This document shows positions 30,036 to 38,597 of a DNA stretch of 64,000 nucleotides, one piece after another. The DNA comes from Aequorivita aurantiaca. Its GTDB lineage: Bacteria > Bacteroidota > Bacteroidia > Flavobacteriales > Flavobacteriaceae. The position numbers and the translations under genes are program-made. Within the stretch, counting starts at the first letter, position 1. The number at the start of each line of letters is the position of its first letter. The stretch covers positions 248,001 through 312,000 of the forward strand of contig NZ_JAUGQQ010000001.1 of the NCBI RefSeq assembly GCF_030410135.1. Reading direction: 5' to 3'. The notes under the pieces were generated by a model that saw only the letters and a list, made by a program, of their open reading frames with translations, had not been told where the DNA came from and did no database searches.

Positions 30036-32399
30036 TTATTGAAGCGTTTTAATTTCGATTTTTTCCCGAAGCTCATTACCTTCCGCATCCACAGCTGTCA
30101 ATAAATATTTTCCGGGCTTTGGCGAAACTGCCAACTCGTGAAAGGTTTCAGTCATCCCAATATATTCCGAATCCAAATACCAAAAGACAGTGGTTTCCGG
30201 CGAACGGTGCGCAAGTTTGAAAATAACTTCGTTCACATTTTCATCAAAATTCTTCGGAAGCAGAACCGCCTCATTTTTCTTCGGATAAATAAAAGCCATC
30301 AACTTTTCCCCGTCCTGCAAACAATCGGGTGCAAAAGGTGGAAGAATTTTATATTCCGGGTGAAGTTGGGCATAATAATATTCCATCACCGGCGGTAATA
30401 CAAACCAATTTTTCTGAACCATTTCCGAAAGCGGATAACACGACGAATTCACCCGAAAATTTTCCGAAGCATTTAAAAATACCGTTTGATGATATGGGCA
30501 CGCTTCTGTTCTTGTTCCGTTTTTTGGCATCCATTCGTTCTTAATTTCTTCGCAAAAAAGTCCGGCAAGATGCCCACTTTTAGTGCAAATTTCAACCTCA
30601 ACCAATTCGTCATACGGAATTTTAAACCAACCGCTTTGCGGCAAAACATTCAAAACATCAAACAAAACTGGCGCAGCAGCTTGAATTCCCGTTAATCCCG
30701 GACGGCCTTCGCCATCGGCATTTCCCACCCAAACGCCTATTGCATATTTTGGCGTAACCCCAACTGCCCACGCATCCTTAAATCCGTAGCTCGTCCCGGT
30801 TTTCCAAGCAAGCGGCTGGCTGCTTGTGAAAAATTCCCAGTTTTCCTCCCCGCTTGGGCGATTCACTCTTTCCATCGCTTCAAAGGCTTCGTAAATTGCC
30901 CCAGCATTCCAAACGGAAGGTTTTTGTTGGATTTTTCCGAAGTCAATTTCATCGTGATTCTTTACATAAACCGGTTCCACAAATTCATTTTTCCGATATT
31001 CGCTGGAAGAATTATTGAAGAAATTTAAAGTGGAAGCCATTCCCGCATAGGCTTTTGTAATATCCCACAAACTGCTTTCCGCACCGCCGAGAATTAGGGA
31101 AAGTCCGTAATAATCCGCAGGTTTATCAATTTCGTTTAAATTAATTTTGCCCAAAACATTATAAAAACGCTGCAAATCAAAATCACGCAACATCCGGACC
31201 GCGGGAATATTCAGCGAACGGGAAAGTGCAACGCTTGCGGGCACTGCGCCGTTGAATTGCTTATCGAAATTTTCTGGCGTGTACCCATTAACCGAAGTTG
31301 GAATATCTGCCACCAACGTATTCGGAAGAATTTCGCCAGCATCGAGCATCGAAGTAAAAAGAAACGGTTTTAAAATACTGCCCGTGCTTCGCGGTTTTTC
31401 AATAACATCCACAAAATTGTTGTGCTCGGCGGTTGTTGGGGCATTACCAACGTATGCCAATACTTCCCGCGTGTTCACATCCAAAACCAAAACGGCAAGG
31501 TTGTGGATTTGGTTTTGGCTCAAAATATAATTGTTCTCCTTAACAATATTGTTCACTTTTTTTTGAAGCGAAAAATCAATCGTGGTTTCAATACGTTTTC
31601 CGGGATGCTCCTTTCGTATTTTTTCGGTTAAATGTGGTGCAAATTCAGGCAAAGGCAACGGTTTTCCGGGAAGCATTTCATCCACGGCCAATTGAAATGT
31701 AGTTTTATCAAATACTTCATTTTGAAAAAGTTTTAGCAACAATGCATCTCTTTTCTGTTTTAGAATTTCCTCGTTTTTCCCGGGAAAAATAAGCGATGGT
31801 GCGTTGGGAAGCACTGCCAATGCCGCGGATTGCCCCCAACTCAGTTCGCTCGCGGGAATTCCAAAATAGCGCCACGAAGCAGTTTCGAGCCCCACCACAT
31901 TTCCACCGAAAGGTGCGTACGAAGCATATAAATTCAGAATTGATTTCTTTTTGTAACCGGCTTCTAAACGCGTAGCTTGAAAAATTTCAATCACTTTTTC
32001 AAAATAAGTGCGCCCTTTATTTTGGCGGGAAAGTCGGATTACTTGTTGCGTAATCGTACTTCCGCCGCGGCGGGAATCGCTGGTAAGATTGTTCCAAAGT
32101 GCTTTTGAAATTGAAACCAGATTAAAACCGGGATGCCAATAAAAATGTTCGTCCTCAAAATAAAGAATGCATTTTTCAAACCGTTCCGGCACGGAATCCA
32201 TTTTCGGAAATCGCCATTGGCCATCGTCCGCAATCCGCGCGCCGAGCATCTGTCCGCTATTGCTTTCAGCAACCGTTGCGGTTGGAACGTTGAATAATGG
32301 GGATGGAAGGCAGAATAGCCAAAGCATGAATAAAATCATCAGGATGCTGAGTTTTATTTTATGTTTTTTTAAATAGCTATTTATATAAGAAAATTTCAA
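30036..32399 (-). CDS. pbpC: Penicillin-binding protein 1C
   Basis: Bifunctional peptidoglycan synthase of 787 residues: N-terminal membrane anchor (about 13-33), GT51 glycosyltransferase (about 60-230, with the EDEHFYWHPG and GGSTITQQ motifs), transpeptidase (about 290-560) with SxxK in RSTGSILKPF (about 335-342), SLN, and KTGTSYGFKDAW (about 530-541), then the C-terminal PbpC domain (about 700-787). PbpC is known to be paired with alpha-2-macroglobulin (E. coli pbpC-yfhM) as a periplasmic defence and repair unit, and the partner is next upstream here, separated by a GIY-YIG cassette. Confidence 0.95.
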   Translation of the reverse strand: MKFSYINSYLKKHKIKLSILMILFMLWLFCLPSPLFNVPTATVAESNSGQMLGARIADDGQWRFPKMDSVPERFEKCILYFEDEHFYWHPGFNLVSISKALWNNLTSDSRRGGSTITQQVIRLSRQNKGRTYFEKVIEIFQATRLEAGYKKKSILNLYASYAPFGGNVVGLETASWRYFGIPASELSWGQSAALAVLPNAPSLIFPGKNEEILKQKRDALLLKLFQNEVFDKTTFQLAVDEMLPGKPLPLPEFAPHLTEKIRKEHPGKRIETTIDFSLQKKVNNIVKENNYILSQNQIHNLAVLVLDVNTREVLAYVGNAPTTAEHNNFVDVIEKPRSTGSILKPFLFTSMLDAGEILPNTLVADIPTSVNGYTPENFDKQFNGAVPASVALSRSLNIPAVRMLRDFDLQRFYNVLGKINLNEIDKPADYYGLSLILGGAESSLWDITKAYAGMASTLNFFNNSSSEYRKNEFVEPVYVKNHDEIDFGKIQQKPSVWNAGAIYEAFEAMERVNRPSGEENWEFFTSSQPLAWKTGTSYGFKDAWAVGVTPKYAIGVWVGNADGEGRPGLTGIQAAAPVLFDVLNVLPQSGWFKIPYDELVEVEICTKSGHLAGLFCEEIKNEWMPKNGTRTEACPYHQTVFLNASENFRVNSSCYPLSEMVQKNWFVLPPVMEYYYAQLHPEYKILPPFAPDCLQDGEKLMAFIYPKKNEAVLLPKNFDENVNEVIFKLAHRSPETTVFWYLDSEYIGMTETFHELAVSPKPGKYLLTAVDAEGNELREKIEIKTLQ

Positions 32400-32430: not shown

Positions 32431-32489
32431 TGTCAGTCTGAGCTTGTCGAAGACCGTCAAGGATACGCTTCGACAAACTCAGCGTGACA
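32431..32489. repeat. REP-like inverted pair downstream of the GIY-YIG gene
   Basis: Two copies of a 23-24-nt unit (core CTGAGCTTGTCGAAG on the plus strand at 32431-32454, and its reverse form at 32467-32489) face each other, like a REPIN. Further copies are at 32521-32544, 32881-32903 and 32935-32958. Confidence 0.75.
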
Positions 32490-32520
32490 ATTCATTTCAA
32501 TTTATAATTTTGTCTTTTAG

Positions 32521-32544
32521 TGTCAGTCTGAGCCTGTCGAAGAC
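32521..32544 (+). repeat. REP-like unit forming the 3' end of the GIY-YIG gene
   Basis: Core CTGAGCCTGTCGAAG. It overlaps the last codons of the GIY-YIG gene, so the protein ends in repeat-encoded ESSTGSD. It is 31 nt from the preceding inverted copy. Confidence 0.75.
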
Positions 32545-32855
32545 TCTCGTGAATCTGGATGTCCATATTCAGTATAATTTTTTGAAAATTTAATCAGATC
32601 CTGCCAATTTTCTTGAATCAATGATGTTTTCTTTCTTCGCGACCAACCCTTTATTTGCTTTTCAATTTTTATTGCTTCTGTTGGATTTGTACATTGTATA
32701 TACCATTTCAATTCAACGGGTCTTCTATTAAAAGTATAGCAATCTCTCTTTTTACCTTCATTATGTTGCTCAAGTCTTCGTTCCAAATCATTAGTCATTC
32801 CAGTGTAATAGGAATTATCGGAACATTGCAGAATATATGTAAAGTAAAATTTCAT
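32523..32855 (-). CDS. Small GIY-YIG nuclease flanked by REP-like repeats
   Basis: 110 residues, a stand-alone UvrC/Intron-type GIY-YIG nuclease of the UPF0213/YhbQ-like group. The motif appears as TYILQCSDNSYYTG (about 6-19), with R in LERRLEQHN and E in AIKIEKQIKGWSRRKK, so the active site looks intact. The last seven to ten residues are encoded by a REP-like unit, which suggests that the repeat has replaced the original end of the gene or that gene and repeat travel together. It stands between pbpC and its usual partner. Such genes are frequent and multi-copy in flavobacteria; their cellular role is not established. Confidence 0.85.
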   Translation of the reverse strand: MKFYFTYILQCSDNSYYTGMTNDLERRLEQHNEGKKRDCYTFNRRPVELKWYIQCTNPTEAIKIEKQIKGWSRRKKTSLIQENWQDLIKFSKNYTEYGHPDSRESSTGSD

Positions 32856-32880
32856 CTTTGAATTTATTTCATCATACAGC

Positions 32881-32958
32881 GCTTCGACAGGCTCAGCGTG
32901 ACAACTTAATTCAATTTATATTTAATATTACGAATGTCAGTCTGAGCTTGTCGAAGAC
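32881..32958. repeat. REP-like pair upstream of the GIY-YIG gene
   Basis: Inverted unit at 32881-32903 (reverse form of CTGAGCCTGTCGAAG) and direct unit at 32935-32958, separated by exactly 31 nt. The same pair with the same 31-nt spacing and a similar A/T-rich spacer occurs at 32467-32544, so the gene lies between two direct copies of a 78-nt module. Confidence 0.75.
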
Positions 32959-32978
32959 CCATACACCTACGCATCAAC

Positions 32979-35900
32979 TTATAACTCCACAGTAACCCAC
33001 ATCCCTTTATTCCTCGCATAATAGCTATTGTCATACATAGCCTCAACCTGCGTTCCGGGCAAATAATACGTCCCCAAATAGGAAGCATTTAACTTTACAC
33101 TAAACGCTTTAGTTTCACCAGCTTTCAAATCGAAGAAAAAATTCACTCGGTCGTCGCGAATGTCTGTGTATCGCGCATTTCCACTTGCTCCGCCGCCTAA
33201 TTCAGAAAAATTTGTGTTTACAATTTCCCAACCGCTTGGGAAGATTTTTGCCAAAGCAACATTATTTATCCAATCGCTTGAAGTATTTGTAACAATCACT
33301 TTTGCTATGATTTCGGTTCCTTGTCGCAATTTTGTAACGTCTATTGGTTTTCCATCACCTCCCAAATATTCAGATTTAATGGAAAGATTTCGTTTTTCTG
33401 CGAGTTCCTTGCCAAGAGGTAACTTTCCTCTTTGCGAAAGCGTAATGTAAACCACATTTCCTTTTTTGTTGGTCACCGAAACGGAATTGCTTCCCATTAC
33501 AAACGAAAGATCGCGCTGGGAAATAGCCCGATCAGTTTTTACCTCAATCGATTTTCCGCCATTCGTAAACGTAAGTTCCATCGCTTTTCCACCGTTTTTG
33601 GCAACCATTTTTGCCATTGCCATCAGCGCATACGAAGTTTCCTGAGTGCTGTACCAATTTCCGGATGACAAATCTTTTGCCACGGAAATCGCTAAATCGC
33701 GTTGTTTCGAATCGCCCAATAAAACCAAAGTTTCCATAGCCATCGCCCTATTTCTGAAAGGCGAGCCATAAGTGTAATAATCATACTTCTGCGGAACGAA
33801 ATTTATGTTCGCCGTTCGTGCAATCTGTTGCGCAACTTCCTTTTTTCCTGCCAAAGCGTACGCGGCTGCCAAACGCCATTTGGCATCATTGCTCAATTCC
33901 TTGCTTTCGCGAAGTCGATTCATGGCGGCAAGTTCGGGTTTTCCGGCAAGCGCCATTGTGTAAAGCCGATAAGCCTGCGTTAAACTGGAATTATAAACCT
34001 TATAACTATTTCGCCATTGGCGTGCTGCATTTTGTTGGTATAGCAACCAATTGCTCATAAAACTTATGGGCAGCGCATACCCTTTTTGCTTGGCCTCGAG
34101 CATAAAATGACCCACATAACTGGTACTCCATTCATCCGCTTCCCGTTCGCCGGGCCAATACGAAAGTCCGCCATTGGGGAGTTGAAATCGGCCCAACCGT
34201 TCAATTGCGGCTTTTACGTTTTTCTCAATTTCTTTCTTTTTTTCGAAAGTTATGTCGAAAACATCTGCCAAATAAAGCTGCGGAAATGCAGAGGAAGTAG
34301 TCTGCTCAATGCATCCGTAGGGATAATGGATCAAATATTCCATTCGTTTGCCGAAATCCATCGGCGGCAAGGTTGAAAATTCAAGCATCGCGGCATTGCT
34401 TCCGGGAACGCCAAAGGTTTCAAAAGTGATGGTTTGCGAAGCACTTCCGTCCAAAGTATAATTCGTGGCTTTTTGCGAAATGGGGTTCGGGTTTTCTACG
34501 TCAATTTCTACTTTATAACTCGCTTTTTCGCCGTTGCCGGAAGCAGTTACCTCAATGGTTTGAAATTTCTTCCTTGGTAAAACATCGAATTCAAAATTGA
34601 CAATCTGTTCCCCCGGACTGCTGAAAGAAACGGTTTTTGAAACCCCGTTTTTCGGTTTCAGTGCATCGCCAGTTTTCACAGTAATCATAGCGGTTTTCAC
34701 TTTATTCTCCATCGCAAAAACGGTAACGGGAAGCGTAACGGTTTCGCCCGGCGACAATTTCCGCGGAAGCGAAGCCAGCACCATTAATGGCGTGCGGACT
34801 GGCGTAGTTTTTTCGACACTTCCATACGCACCTTTTGCATTGTCGCCCGCAATTACCATCGTCCGAACTGAACCTATATAATTTGGCATTATAATATTAT
34901 GCGTTGCTGTTATTCCGGCTGCCAATTGAAACGGGCCGAGATATTTTACAACCGGTTTAAACCGGTCCGCTTTTCGGTTTTTTGCACCCAACGCCGCATC
35001 GCCGCCGCCAATTGCGTAAATATTATCCACACTGCCGGAATACGCGCCAATCACGTAATCGAACATATCAAAGGTTTTTACGCCCAGGGCTTCGCGGCTG
35101 TAAAACGCTTCGTGAATATCGGGCGTCGCAAAGCGGGTTAAATCCAATAAACCTTCGTCCACGACGGCAATTGTGTATGTCATCGGTTTGTTGTTTTCTT
35201 CGGAAACTTTTATGGTAAATTGTTTCTCTGGTTTTAAAACCTCAGGCATAGTGATTTTAGGGTGAAGCACCGTTGAAGGATCTTCCACCCAAAGCGGAAT
35301 AACGCCGTAAAGCCGTATTGGCAAATCGTTTTTAGTTTGGCTATGCGGCTGCAGTAGCGAAATATTCACATAAATATTCGGTGCCATTTCCTTTGTGATT
35401 TTTATCGCCGCTTTCGTTTCGCCTTTTTTGGTTTCAATCCAATGCGTTGCCAAAACTTCGGTACCATTTTCAACACTAATCAGCGCGTGGCCTTCACTTC
35501 CCGATGGAAAAGTTATAAAGGCTTCCTCGCCCACATTATATTTTTCTTTGTCTGCCGAAAAAAGAAGCATCCGCGCACTTTCAGCATCGCCGTCGCTTGG
35601 GCGTTGCCACCAATTTCTGTAGAAATATGTTATACGCCCTGTTGCGTGGCCGGATTGTTTATCAATTACGCGAATTAAATAGCGTCCACCTTCCTCTTCG
35701 GGAATATTTACTGTGAATTTTCCCTTTCCGCTACCATCGGTTTTTACGGTGAATTCCTTAACTGGACGATGCACGGTTGAATTTTCATAGGTTGAAAGAT
35801 TGTCCTCCCCGCGATTCCACCACCAACGCCATTCAATTTGGAAAACTTTTACTTCCAGTTCGCGATTTGCTGCAGCTTTGCCTTGGGCATCCACGGAAAC

Positions 35901-38597
35901 AACATCAAAGTTTGTGTTTTCACTTGTAAAATAAGAGCCGTAACGGCCGGCTTCGGGAGATTTCAAACCGACGAAATGTGAGAATGGCGCTAAATCCTTT
36001 GAAAAAATATCCATTGAAAAATCGCCACCGCCTTCGTACAGTTTCGTTAAGAAAGTAGCTTTCAACATTCCCGGCGCACTTTTTCCAACTTCTATTTTTT
36101 GGTTGAAAGAAGTTGTTCCTTCCGAAGAAAGTTGCGCATCCAGAACCGGAATTTCAACCTCCTCAAATTTTCGGATTGGGTCGATGAAATTGTATTTTGG
36201 ATATTTCGAAAAAGCGGAATTGCTGGCGCGAAGCGTAGCGGACATATCAATCTTCAAATTACGCGCAGGCGAGCCGTGAAGCCACATTGCGCTTGCAGTT
36301 CCCTTTACGGGCTTTGTGGCGTCGAGGATTTCGTCTTCAAAATCCAGCTTTATTTTTAAACGATTCGGTTTAATGGTCGCAACTTTTAAGGTATGCGAAA
36401 ATTGCGCGCCACCAACCGTTATTGTGGCGTTCCAATTGCCCGTAGGTGCCGCAGCGTCCGTTGCGATTGGGAAATAATAGAAGCCCTTCAGCCCCCTGGC
36501 CCCCGAAGGGGGAACTACTGTTTGAGAATTATTCGAATTTAAAACACTTCTTTGAACGAGTTTTCCGCGAGCATCGGTTATTGAAAGCGTAACGGGATGG
36601 TTTTTTGGCAGCGGATTTGCGTTGTCGTTCAACACAAAAGTAAGGTGAATGCTATCGCCGGGACGGTATACGCCGCGTTCAGTATAAATGAAACCTTTAA
36701 GACCGCGTTGCAGTTCTTTTCCAGAAATGTCGAAATTACTCATGGAAAGGGCATTTCCGTCTTCCAGTTTTACATAGGCATAATTGTTTCCTTTTTGCGC
36801 CACTGCGAAAGCGGCATTTTTGGTGCCGTCATAAAGCGTGATTCCATCGCTTTCCGTGGTTACTGTTTCGATTAGTTGCTGCTGATAATTGAAAAGTTTC
36901 ACCTTTACGCCATCTTCAGGTTTCGCGGAAATTAGGTTTGTTGCGAAAAAATGATACGAACGGTTGTTGCCTTTTTTCACGATCAGGCCCAAATCGGAGC
37001 CCAAAATATTTGCTGTAACTACGCGCTCTTCGTTGTAATATGCGGGGTGGCACGGATTATCCTGCTGCTCCCAATTATAGGTGTAATTTCTCCAGCGGTA
37101 AATTTCATTGTCCCAATAGCGCTCTTCGCGAATTTCTTCATCCTCGGTGTTATCGTTGGCGTAATAGGGATCTTCTTCGTAATATTCATCTTCATATGCG
37201 TCACCTTCTTCTTCATTATCCTCGATAATGGCTGAAGTCGTTTCGCTGCAATCATAAGTAATGTAATCCTTTTTGAAACTGAATTCCAACTGATAAATAG
37301 CACCGGGATCTGCCTTAAAATATTCCGAAAGATTGATGGCGTAGGCTTTCCAACTGCCGTTATTGCTGAAATCGTCATTTTTAAGGGTGATGGTTTTTTT
37401 GGCAATCCTTCTTCCGACGCGTTTAATATCGTAGGTATTGTTATCATTCAAATTATAACTTTGAAGAAATTGGAGTAGGTTCTTCTCGTAAATTTTAATG
37501 ATGCGAACATCGACTTTTGAAAGATTTACCGCTTCAAAATAAACCGGCGTTGTTGCAGAATTCGGAAGAATTACGCCTTTGGAAATCATCCGTACTGCAG
37601 GTTTTAATTGCTCGAAAGAAACCAATTCTGAAAATTCCTTCTTCAATCCGAAGCCCTCGGTATTTTTTATTCCCGTGAAAACGGTGACTTTTACGTCGCC
37701 CACAACGCGATTTGGAGGATACACATTTAGTACATTTCCGTTGACTTCGTAACGCAAATCCTGCGTGTTTTCAATAGTTACCAAGCCTGCAAAATCCTGA
37801 TTTTCCAGCAAAGGATCTGAAAAGTTGATACTTAACAGCGCCGCGGGCGCCAACGTACTGCTGATATCGACGATTGTAAAATTATTTTGTCCGGGGATTG
37901 CAAAGGTGTTTTCACCTTTGTTTTCTGCGCCAATTGGTTTTCCGTCCCATTTAATTAGAATTTCGGAATCTTCCATTTTACGGCTTATACTGTCTATTTT
38001 AAAGTTGAAGAACTTCGCCTCATTGCTTTCCTCGGGCCATTTCAGCCTTAATTTTTTACCTCCCTGCGAAGCCGAAACCAATTGTTTGACCTTTTCCAAC
38101 GAAATAACATCGGACGCTTCAACCGATGCTTCCAGATATTGCCATTGTTTACTGTAGCTTTGAAGGTTTCCCAAATCAACTTTAAAATTTGGGGTAATGG
38201 TGTGAAAACTGAAAGTGTAGGTTTTAAAATCCTTTGAAATGTCTTCGTAAAATTTATTCAGTTTTACCGTTACGGTGTATTCCGTGTCAGGTTTTAAATA
38301 TTCCGAAGGTCGGAAGATTAGGGTTTTGCCGTTTTCAACAATCAATTTTCCTTTTGTAGCAGGTGAAATTTTTAAGTATTCTTCTGCGGAAAGTTCTTGG
38401 GTCAACTCAAATTGTTCCAAGGGTTTTGCAAGTCCAATCCGGATATCTGTGGTAACGGATTGATTTCCGTATGTATTATAAGAAATAAATTCCTTGAATT
38501 TGAAAAGATTGTCAGTTTCGGAATGTTTGTCTTTGTCTTTGCAGGAAGCAATAAAAATTATTGCCGAAAGAATTAATAGTCGCTGCAGTATTTTCAT
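32979..38597 (-). CDS. Alpha-2-macroglobulin family lipoprotein
   Basis: 1872 residues, a bacterial A2M that traps invading proteases in the periplasm. Lipoprotein signal with ASC lipobox (Cys about 19), MG domains, and a thioester motif YGCIEQTT with C1429. The thioester-domain helices follow, and the C terminus ends VTVEL. Two oddities: a stretch extremely rich in Asp, Glu and Tyr at about 455-500, and a repeat-derived segment VVPPSGARGLKG at about 694-705 encoded by a palindrome inside the gene (36489-36518). It is the known partner of PbpC; the pair is interrupted by the GIY-YIG cassette. In E. coli the homologue is YfhM. Confidence 0.93.
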   Translation of the reverse strand: MKILQRLLILSAIIFIASCKDKDKHSETDNLFKFKEFISYNTYGNQSVTTDIRIGLAKPLEQFELTQELSAEEYLKISPATKGKLIVENGKTLIFRPSEYLKPDTEYTVTVKLNKFYEDISKDFKTYTFSFHTITPNFKVDLGNLQSYSKQWQYLEASVEASDVISLEKVKQLVSASQGGKKLRLKWPEESNEAKFFNFKIDSISRKMEDSEILIKWDGKPIGAENKGENTFAIPGQNNFTIVDISSTLAPAALLSINFSDPLLENQDFAGLVTIENTQDLRYEVNGNVLNVYPPNRVVGDVKVTVFTGIKNTEGFGLKKEFSELVSFEQLKPAVRMISKGVILPNSATTPVYFEAVNLSKVDVRIIKIYEKNLLQFLQSYNLNDNNTYDIKRVGRRIAKKTITLKNDDFSNNGSWKAYAINLSEYFKADPGAIYQLEFSFKKDYITYDCSETTSAIIEDNEEEGDAYEDEYYEEDPYYANDNTEDEEIREERYWDNEIYRWRNYTYNWEQQDNPCHPAYYNEERVVTANILGSDLGLIVKKGNNRSYHFFATNLISAKPEDGVKVKLFNYQQQLIETVTTESDGITLYDGTKNAAFAVAQKGNNYAYVKLEDGNALSMSNFDISGKELQRGLKGFIYTERGVYRPGDSIHLTFVLNDNANPLPKNHPVTLSITDARGKLVQRSVLNSNNSQTVVPPSGARGLKGFYYFPIATDAAAPTGNWNATITVGGAQFSHTLKVATIKPNRLKIKLDFEDEILDATKPVKGTASAMWLHGSPARNLKIDMSATLRASNSAFSKYPKYNFIDPIRKFEEVEIPVLDAQLSSEGTTSFNQKIEVGKSAPGMLKATFLTKLYEGGGDFSMDIFSKDLAPFSHFVGLKSPEAGRYGSYFTSENTNFDVVSVDAQGKAAANRELEVKVFQIEWRWWWNRGEDNLSTYENSTVHRPVKEFTVKTDGSGKGKFTVNIPEEEGGRYLIRVIDKQSGHATGRITYFYRNWWQRPSDGDAESARMLLFSADKEKYNVGEEAFITFPSGSEGHALISVENGTEVLATHWIETKKGETKAAIKITKEMAPNIYVNISLLQPHSQTKNDLPIRLYGVIPLWVEDPSTVLHPKITMPEVLKPEKQFTIKVSEENNKPMTYTIAVVDEGLLDLTRFATPDIHEAFYSREALGVKTFDMFDYVIGAYSGSVDNIYAIGGGDAALGAKNRKADRFKPVVKYLGPFQLAAGITATHNIIMPNYIGSVRTMVIAGDNAKGAYGSVEKTTPVRTPLMVLASLPRKLSPGETVTLPVTVFAMENKVKTAMITVKTGDALKPKNGVSKTVSFSSPGEQIVNFEFDVLPRKKFQTIEVTASGNGEKASYKVEIDVENPNPISQKATNYTLDGSASQTITFETFGVPGSNAAMLEFSTLPPMDFGKRMEYLIHYPYGCIEQTTSSAFPQLYLADVFDITFEKKKEIEKNVKAAIERLGRFQLPNGGLSYWPGEREADEWSTSYVGHFMLEAKQKGYALPISFMSNWLLYQQNAARQWRNSYKVYNSSLTQAYRLYTMALAGKPELAAMNRLRESKELSNDAKWRLAAAYALAGKKEVAQQIARTANINFVPQKYDYYTYGSPFRNRAMAMETLVLLGDSKQRDLAISVAKDLSSGNWYSTQETSYALMAMAKMVAKNGGKAMELTFTNGGKSIEVKTDRAISQRDLSFVMGSNSVSVTNKKGNVVYITLSQRGKLPLGKELAEKRNLSIKSEYLGGDGKPIDVTKLRQGTEIIAKVIVTNTSSDWINNVALAKIFPSGWEIVNTNFSELGGGASGNARYTDIRDDRVNFFFDLKAGETKAFSVKLNASYLGTYYLPGTQVEAMYDNSYYARNKGMWVTVEL
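36489..36518. repeat. Palindromic repeat inside the alpha-2-macroglobulin gene
   Basis: CAGCCCCCTGGCCCCCGAAG followed by GGGGGAACTAC: arms of C and G runs around CGAA. Similar sequences occur between genes at 42799-42830 and 42894-42922. Here it is read in frame and leaves the reading frame open. Confidence 0.65.

Follow-up and report, generated by a model that had tools for sequence, protein, structure and literature searches.

Introduction

CGTC-tagged REPs were defined in 2013, apparently without a dedicated transposase, according to the parts of that study drawn on here (Di Nocera et al. 2013, PMC3733652). On the enzyme side, Slx1 cuts branched DNA in a structure-specific manner, and GIY-YIG domains are classic homing nucleases, as stated in the sections of PMC1564403 used here. 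We found no earlier report of a link between GIY-YIG genes and REPs among open-licence PMC papers. In the excerpts of a Moraxella study that bear on the matter, RAYT and GIY-YIG are given only as separate genes of one clade (PMC9465073), and the word 'nuclease' is absent from the portion of the RepRanger paper used here (PMC12306157).

Here we describe a locus of Aequorivita aurantiaca in which a small GIY-YIG gene is bracketed by REP-like hairpins. This enzyme is a possible partner for a widespread family of repeats that had been regarded as lacking one.

Results

Five hairpin units and two paired modules

The window, which is the whole 64,000-nt stretch of DNA that was analysed, had been given a preliminary description from its letters. 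All five REP-like units claimed there were found in their places (Table 1). Each consists of GTCA, a four-base arm, GAG, a 5-base loop, CGA and the complementary arm, and the stems are split by strand, with GTCT on the + units and CGCT on the - units. The repeat core is an unpaired TGTCA tag, a short variable stem, GAG/CGA with internal G.A mismatches, and a loop. A loose unit pattern matched six times in the window, five of these at the GIY-YIG locus, compared to an expectation of 0.92 and at most three matches in 100 shuffles.

Four units form two modules, and the reported offset of about 414 nt between these direct copies proved correct, as did the 31 nt between the units of each pair (32490-32520 and 32904-32934, when one extra base is counted at each unit's tag end). 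The two spacers had been called similar, for which the support is modest: they are identical at 18 of 31 positions against a shuffled mean of 11.9, and 25 of 2000 shuffles were equally high. The last codons and TGA of the nuclease frame lie inside unit 3, so that this claim also stood. When folded as DNA, two single units of the window type did no better than shuffles, whereas each 78-nt pair gave one long hairpin. The pair is thus the structural unit. In REPINs, paired units likewise form the structural unit.

Table 1. Positions in the window of the repeats, the nuclease gene and the genes at its borders
Feature	Position	Strand	Description
pbpC-like gene	30036..32399	-	One border of the insertion site
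Unit 1	32432..32454	+	Stem GTCT; outer copy downstream of the GIY-YIG gene; GTCA-GTCT-GAG-CTTGT-CGA-AGAC
Downstream module	32465..32545	.	Two inverted units and a 31-nt spacer; single long hairpin; -13.3 kcal/mol as DNA, z -3.45
Unit 2	32466..32488	-	Stem CGCT with a TTTGT loop; forms the first arm of the downstream module
Unit 3	32522..32544	+	Stem GTCT; forms the second arm of the downstream module and codes for the C-terminal end and TGA stop of the GIY-YIG gene
Standalone Slx1-like GIY-YIG nuclease gene	32523..32855	-	110 aa; Pfam PF01541, E 7e-20
Upstream module	32879..32959	.	Repeats the downstream module in direct orientation; folds as DNA at -17.6 kcal/mol, z -5.12
Unit 4	32880..32902	-	Stem CGCT; part of the upstream module
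Unit 5	32936..32958	+	Stem GTCT; part of the upstream module
Alpha-2-macroglobulin-like (A2M) gene	32979..38597	-	Other border of the insertion site

The nuclease belongs to the Slx1 side of the GIY-YIG superfamily

In 43 aligned sequences Y7, Y17, G19, R27, H31 and E65 were invariant, which includes the catalytic Tyr, Arg and Glu of an Slx1-like GIY-YIG domain (Y7, Y17, R27 and E65). The AlphaFold2 model of the protein had a pLDDT of 87.5, and Foldseek ranked 1ZG2 and 1YWL first, followed by Slx1-Slx4 chains, with only 1ZG2 at E below 0.001. The 110-aa protein is a standalone domain whose nearest fold in this ranking is of the Slx1 type, and it groups with the Slx1 side of the superfamily. 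Since Slx1 cuts branched DNA, a hairpin or cruciform substrate would suit the enzyme. A Pfam profile search found no NUMOD or second domain in the window protein, and NCBIfam holds no family for it or for the second standalone enzyme of its genome.

Repeats accompany one GIY-YIG clade

To follow the linkage in relatives, 80 loci were picked from GTDB genomes by protein similarity alone (the best 80 of 550). In 70 of these best 80 of 550 loci the gene had a strict tagged unit at a distance of at most 500 bp, and in 60 it had one on each side. The tag-free core hairpin was present within the same distance in 77 and on both sides in 69, so that the co-occurrence of gene and repeat suggested by the preliminary description was borne out. 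Six of the 10 loci in this set of 80 without the strict motif are non-Bacteroidota, and those inspected keep the core under another tag; the tag is gone from the Sphingobium and Anaerolineae copies. By scan, no core hairpin was found within 500 bp in L068, L084 and L120 (three of the best 80 of 550), and decayed unit copies were seen by eye in L120. The hosts comprise Flavobacteriaceae, Sphingobacteriaceae, Chitinophagaceae, Ignavibacteriota, Nitrospinota, Chloroflexota and Sphingobium (Alphaproteobacteria).

In the same best 80 of 550 loci, the core reached a density of 6.2 per kb at 0-250 bp from the gene compared to 0.077 per kb at 5-10 kb, a local enrichment of about 80-fold. Units are dispersed in these genomes, and repeats that crowd intergenic regions could have a gene fall among them by chance. 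The local enrichment and the class matching described below speak against such a coincidence, which the distal-flank control refutes, and we give it practically no credence. Circularity was controlled with features that had not been imposed. GAG/CGA was inside 226 of 359 GTCA-tagged inverted repeats less than 300 bp from the gene versus 28 of 1001 beyond 3 kb, and the arms, for which complementarity was not required, were complementary in 166 of 193 units versus 22 after shuffling, with 22 different stems.

Linkage to the repeats is specific to one GIY-YIG clade. The clade set holds 138 genes (133 distinct sequences), of which 129 have a unit within 400 bp; none was found at this distance for L025, L031, L068, L084, L120, L141, L143, L178 and the second gene of L045. 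Among other GIY-YIG rows, 8 of 33 had a unit nearby, three of these eight being pieces of, or next to, clade genes. At least 10 units were present in 18 of 22 family genomes with a clade gene versus 8 of 38 without one.

Stems differ between the two unit orientations

Within a locus, units in the same orientation share their stem in 248 of 262 pairs and units in opposite orientation in only 22 of 302, which indicates an array with two distinct ends. Similarly, the stems of neighbouring inverted pairs differ in 83 of 89 cases. In 45 of the best 80 of 550 loci the closest unit upstream of the gene is + and the closest one downstream is -, meaning that the tags face outward and that the enzyme gene stands between inverted ends, as in an insertion sequence. 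Tandem duplication of the module would yield the identity of same-orientation units, and we infer that the heterodimer was the founding form of the array. A stop codon in or beside the downstream unit was detected by script in 16 of the best 80 of 550 loci, 12 of which we judged to have the same arrangement as the window.

In L018, L091 and L177 enzyme and repeats together are duplicated in tandem, about 1 kb apart.

Repeat classes follow enzyme subtypes

Units were sorted into class A (5-nt loop), class B (6-nt loop, closing pair T-A or C-G) and class C (long loop ending TAT), and the enzyme tree was built from the first 84 alignment columns, leaving out the repeat-encoded tail. On this tree, whose resolution is weak (only 13 of the 130 inner branches are starred), the class label changes 15 times compared to a shuffled mean of 62, and 0 of 300 shuffles fell below 54. 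After exclusion of 13 of the 133 rows, which were unlabelled for class, the closest relative in another genome predicted the class in 106 of 120 cases (chance 28%). When restricted to relatives less than 70% identical, 89 of 120 were predicted (chance 28%), and this drop indicates that part of the match is plain co-inheritance. In eight genomes there are two enzymes that differ in class, and both lie next to units of the class that belongs to them. Across 60 family genomes, every unit class was commonest where its own enzyme type occurs (p 1e-4 for A, 9e-5 for B and 7e-6 for C), the off-diagonal links being weaker. The repeat class follows the enzyme subtype.

These 60 genomes also bear on the alternative in which repeat mobility comes in trans from RAYT or some other transposase and the GIY-YIG gene is cargo. 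Y1_Tnp genes occur in 27 of them and class C units are weakly correlated with RAYT (p 0.019), but overall RAYT and units are not associated. Furthermore, PF01797 (HUH Y1 transposase) is absent from the window's genome, and a unit within 500 bp was found in 0 of 20 strong RAYT loci of the same family, which were chosen by hand. RAYT was rejected as the driver. A cargo gene would also not match the repeat class, as the enzymes do, which leaves transposition in trans very improbable.

Units and enzymes in the own genome, on plasmids and in phages

The genome of the window has six PF01541 hits, four in long ORFs and only two in standalone genes. Both standalone genes lie among such repeats, in two different classes, so that the co-occurrence also holds within this genome. 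The second gene (G000:C3:42941-43210; L011 about 1941-2236) is in a long-loop class C array, GTTCGAG...GTATCGAGAAC. We counted 15 exact class A units, 13 forward and two reverse, with 0 matches to the reversed control pattern. There are also 19 class B units but no class B enzyme, and G027 has 20 units and no clade gene. Repeats that are abundant without any link to GIY-YIG genes had been named in advance as a refutation. This was seen only in part, as dispersed units in genomes without the matching enzyme.

Several further units were noted in the own genome. A tandem class A array of seven exact copies and variants is found at G000:C6:10832-11182 (L007 about 2320-2690), with no GIY-YIG gene seen nearby. 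One in-frame unit, at G000:C11:442386 (L008 1880-1902), is inside a gene that we take to be methionyl-tRNA synthetase-like, where it encodes the peptide GHAELVEAL; another, at G000:C44:144318 (L009 about 2017-2042), encodes CHAEPVEG inside a 327-aa ORF. Two CGTCATTGCGAGCGTAGCGAAGCAA units of a further stem type (L005 2489-2512 and 2650-2673) are near another PF01541 gene.

Plasmids gave 22 matching records, nine of which were inspected for units. On a Sphingomonas plasmid (L188) the scan detected a unit on one side and the upstream unit was read by eye, and on Methylobacterium plasmids (L189, L190) longer-loop units were read by eye on both sides. No unit was detected by scan in the plasmid loci L211, L212, L214, L215 and L216. 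A Planktothrix plasmid (L213 1224-1908) carries a GIY-YIG gene with GTCATTCTGAG..CGAAGAAT units on both sides, which adjoins MmeI and DISARM drmA. It adds Cyanobacteriota, with an enzyme of only 82 bits that may lie outside the clade. The 23 matching phage records were all less than 60% identical. A comparison with Rfam, made to see whether a known RNA family is present, gave nothing but matches far below the gathering scores.

The cassette occupies many genomic positions

The borders of the site in the window are genes that we take to be pbpC-like and alpha-2-macroglobulin-like. When 19 same-genus A2M-pbpC junctions were compared (15, with four added), the cassette was present at seven (the own genome, G061, G073, G091, G093, G094 and G095), seven were closed up and five held other cargo or a spacer. 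Among the first 15 junctions, the 12 loci without the GIY-YIG gene had no units between A2M and pbpC. The search for an empty site that had been proposed for this locus thus showed gene and repeats to be present or absent together. The cassette is at the same site in a sister genus (G039 and Cochleicola gelatinilyticus), so the insertion is old and some 'empty' relatives may be losses. Against the empty A2M-pbpC site of this old insertion, no target-site duplication or clean boundary was seen. In G072 the A2M-pbpC site is empty, but an 83% identical cassette is present at another place, flanked by tandem units that number about six on one side and seven on the other. In total, 132 loci fell into 73 neighbourhood clusters.

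The other cargo at the junctions L126, L127, L128 and L133 was named by eye as a lipoprotein-like ORF or a toxin-antitoxin-like pair. In the Sphingomonadaceae loci L092, L110 and L188 the cassette has nrdR on one side and a gene for an RNA methyltransferase on the other; the GIY-YIG frame of L092 and L110 continues into the latter. A GIY-YIG/SPOUT fusion is reported in the part of PMC1564403 used here, and it may be this arrangement.

If the gene were a homing-type parasite, it would land in existing repeat clusters, and the repeats would be its targets and not its offspring. The catalytic domain fits this behaviour, and class matching is also expected if each subtype homes into its own repeat. 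However, the 12 same-genus junctions without the gene are also without units, and the window protein, with its single domain and no NUMOD, sides with Slx1. We consider homing unlikely. The Slx1-type fold, that of a branched-DNA nuclease, and the long hairpin of the paired module would suit a host-serving resolvase that trims hairpins or cruciforms and is kept adjacent to them for co-regulation, with no mobility. Against such a role, the gene is patchy (any match at E at most 1e-5 in 37 of 60 family genomes), lies at many unrelated sites, arrives with its repeats and is duplicated with them in the three tandem loci. We consider a resolvase function unlikely, too.

Discussion

The gene is linked to the repeats on both sides, its subtypes match the repeat classes, the units are of two oriented types, the cassette is found at many sites and the catalytic residues are conserved. 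We conclude that the locus is probably one copy of a compact repeat-plus-enzyme element, in which an Slx1-like GIY-YIG gene is bracketed by REP-like hairpins. The preliminary suggestion that a GIY-YIG nuclease is the repeat-linked enzyme holds as far as linkage is concerned; recognition, cutting and mobilisation are inferred. The enzyme very probably acts on these repeats, and it may well spread them. Speaking against an element, units persist without a matching enzyme (class B in the own genome, G027, and 8 of 38 genomes without the gene), and unit copy numbers are modest.

In the proposed mechanism, the enzyme would recognise the GAG/CGA hairpin extruded in single-stranded or cruciform DNA and nick it near the tag. 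New copies of the paired units, as REPIN-like dimers, and occasionally of the complete cassette could then arise elsewhere through host repair or recombination. The GIY-YIG enzyme would thereby take the role that RAYT has for GTAG-tagged REPs, but it would cut by hydrolysis and not by HUH chemistry. In its broadest form, which we put forward tentatively, this would be a new class of mobile element, in which hairpin ends with G.A mismatches are recognised by their own Slx1-type GIY-YIG nuclease, a single enzyme that also drives the copying of the cassette and of REPIN-like dimers. CGTC-type REPs would then have a dedicated enzyme, present in five or more bacterial phyla, and a single cell could house several enzyme subtypes, each specific for another class of hairpin.

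Having a candidate enzyme, for which the partner classes are defined by sequence and the controls are clear, makes the missing-transposase question for CGTC-tagged REPs, as it stands in the parts of PMC3733652 drawn on, testable at the bench. Many genes now annotated as 'GIY-YIG nuclease family' would also gain a function, and there would be natural nuclease/hairpin pairs for the study of structure-specific cutting.

Comparison with known systems

Of the repeats described so far, CGTC-tagged REPs come closest. Going by the same parts of PMC3733652, the units share with them an unpaired CGTC/TGTC end tag, a short stem with its loop, the pairing of oppositely oriented units into dimers, heterodimers (the prevailing form in the families CGTC-2 and -3), and the occurrence in Bacteroidetes and alphaproteobacteria with no link to a transposase. 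Of the end tags CGTC, TGTC and CCTC that mark those repeats, TGTC is present at 5 of 5 window units. In contrast to the 8-9 bp stem (A-T at the first two positions), 4-5 nt loop and CCA tail described for CGTC-tagged REPs, the outer stem of the window units is 4-5 bp long and accompanied by G.A mismatches, and the CCA tail is missing. They also differ in the GAG/CGA mismatch core and the linked nuclease gene, and outside Bacteroidota the tag of the present units is often another one. Since the units lack some of the published features, the resemblance, drawn from the published descriptions, is a likeness and not membership.

With the REP/REPIN and RAYT (TnpA-REP) system the locus shares short units of hairpin type, the folding of an inverted pair into a single hairpin and an enzyme gene flanked by its own repeats. 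The enzyme here is GIY-YIG and not HUH Y1, RAYT genes are not near the units, no repeat-flanked HUH Y1 gene was found in the own genome or the 20 RAYT loci, and the tag is TGTC instead of GTAG. Other standalone Slx1-like GIY-YIG nucleases (UPF0213; PDB 1ZG2, 1YWL) have the same domain, size, fold and conserved residues, but the linkage is found in one clade only, Bacillus yazA and other subfamilies being mostly without repeats. I-TevI-type homing endonucleases have the catalytic domain in common with the window protein, as well as the proposed logic of selfish spread by cutting. Unlike these enzymes, which are located in introns or inteins and carry NUMOD, the window gene is a free ORF with a single domain, and here the repeats travel with the gene.
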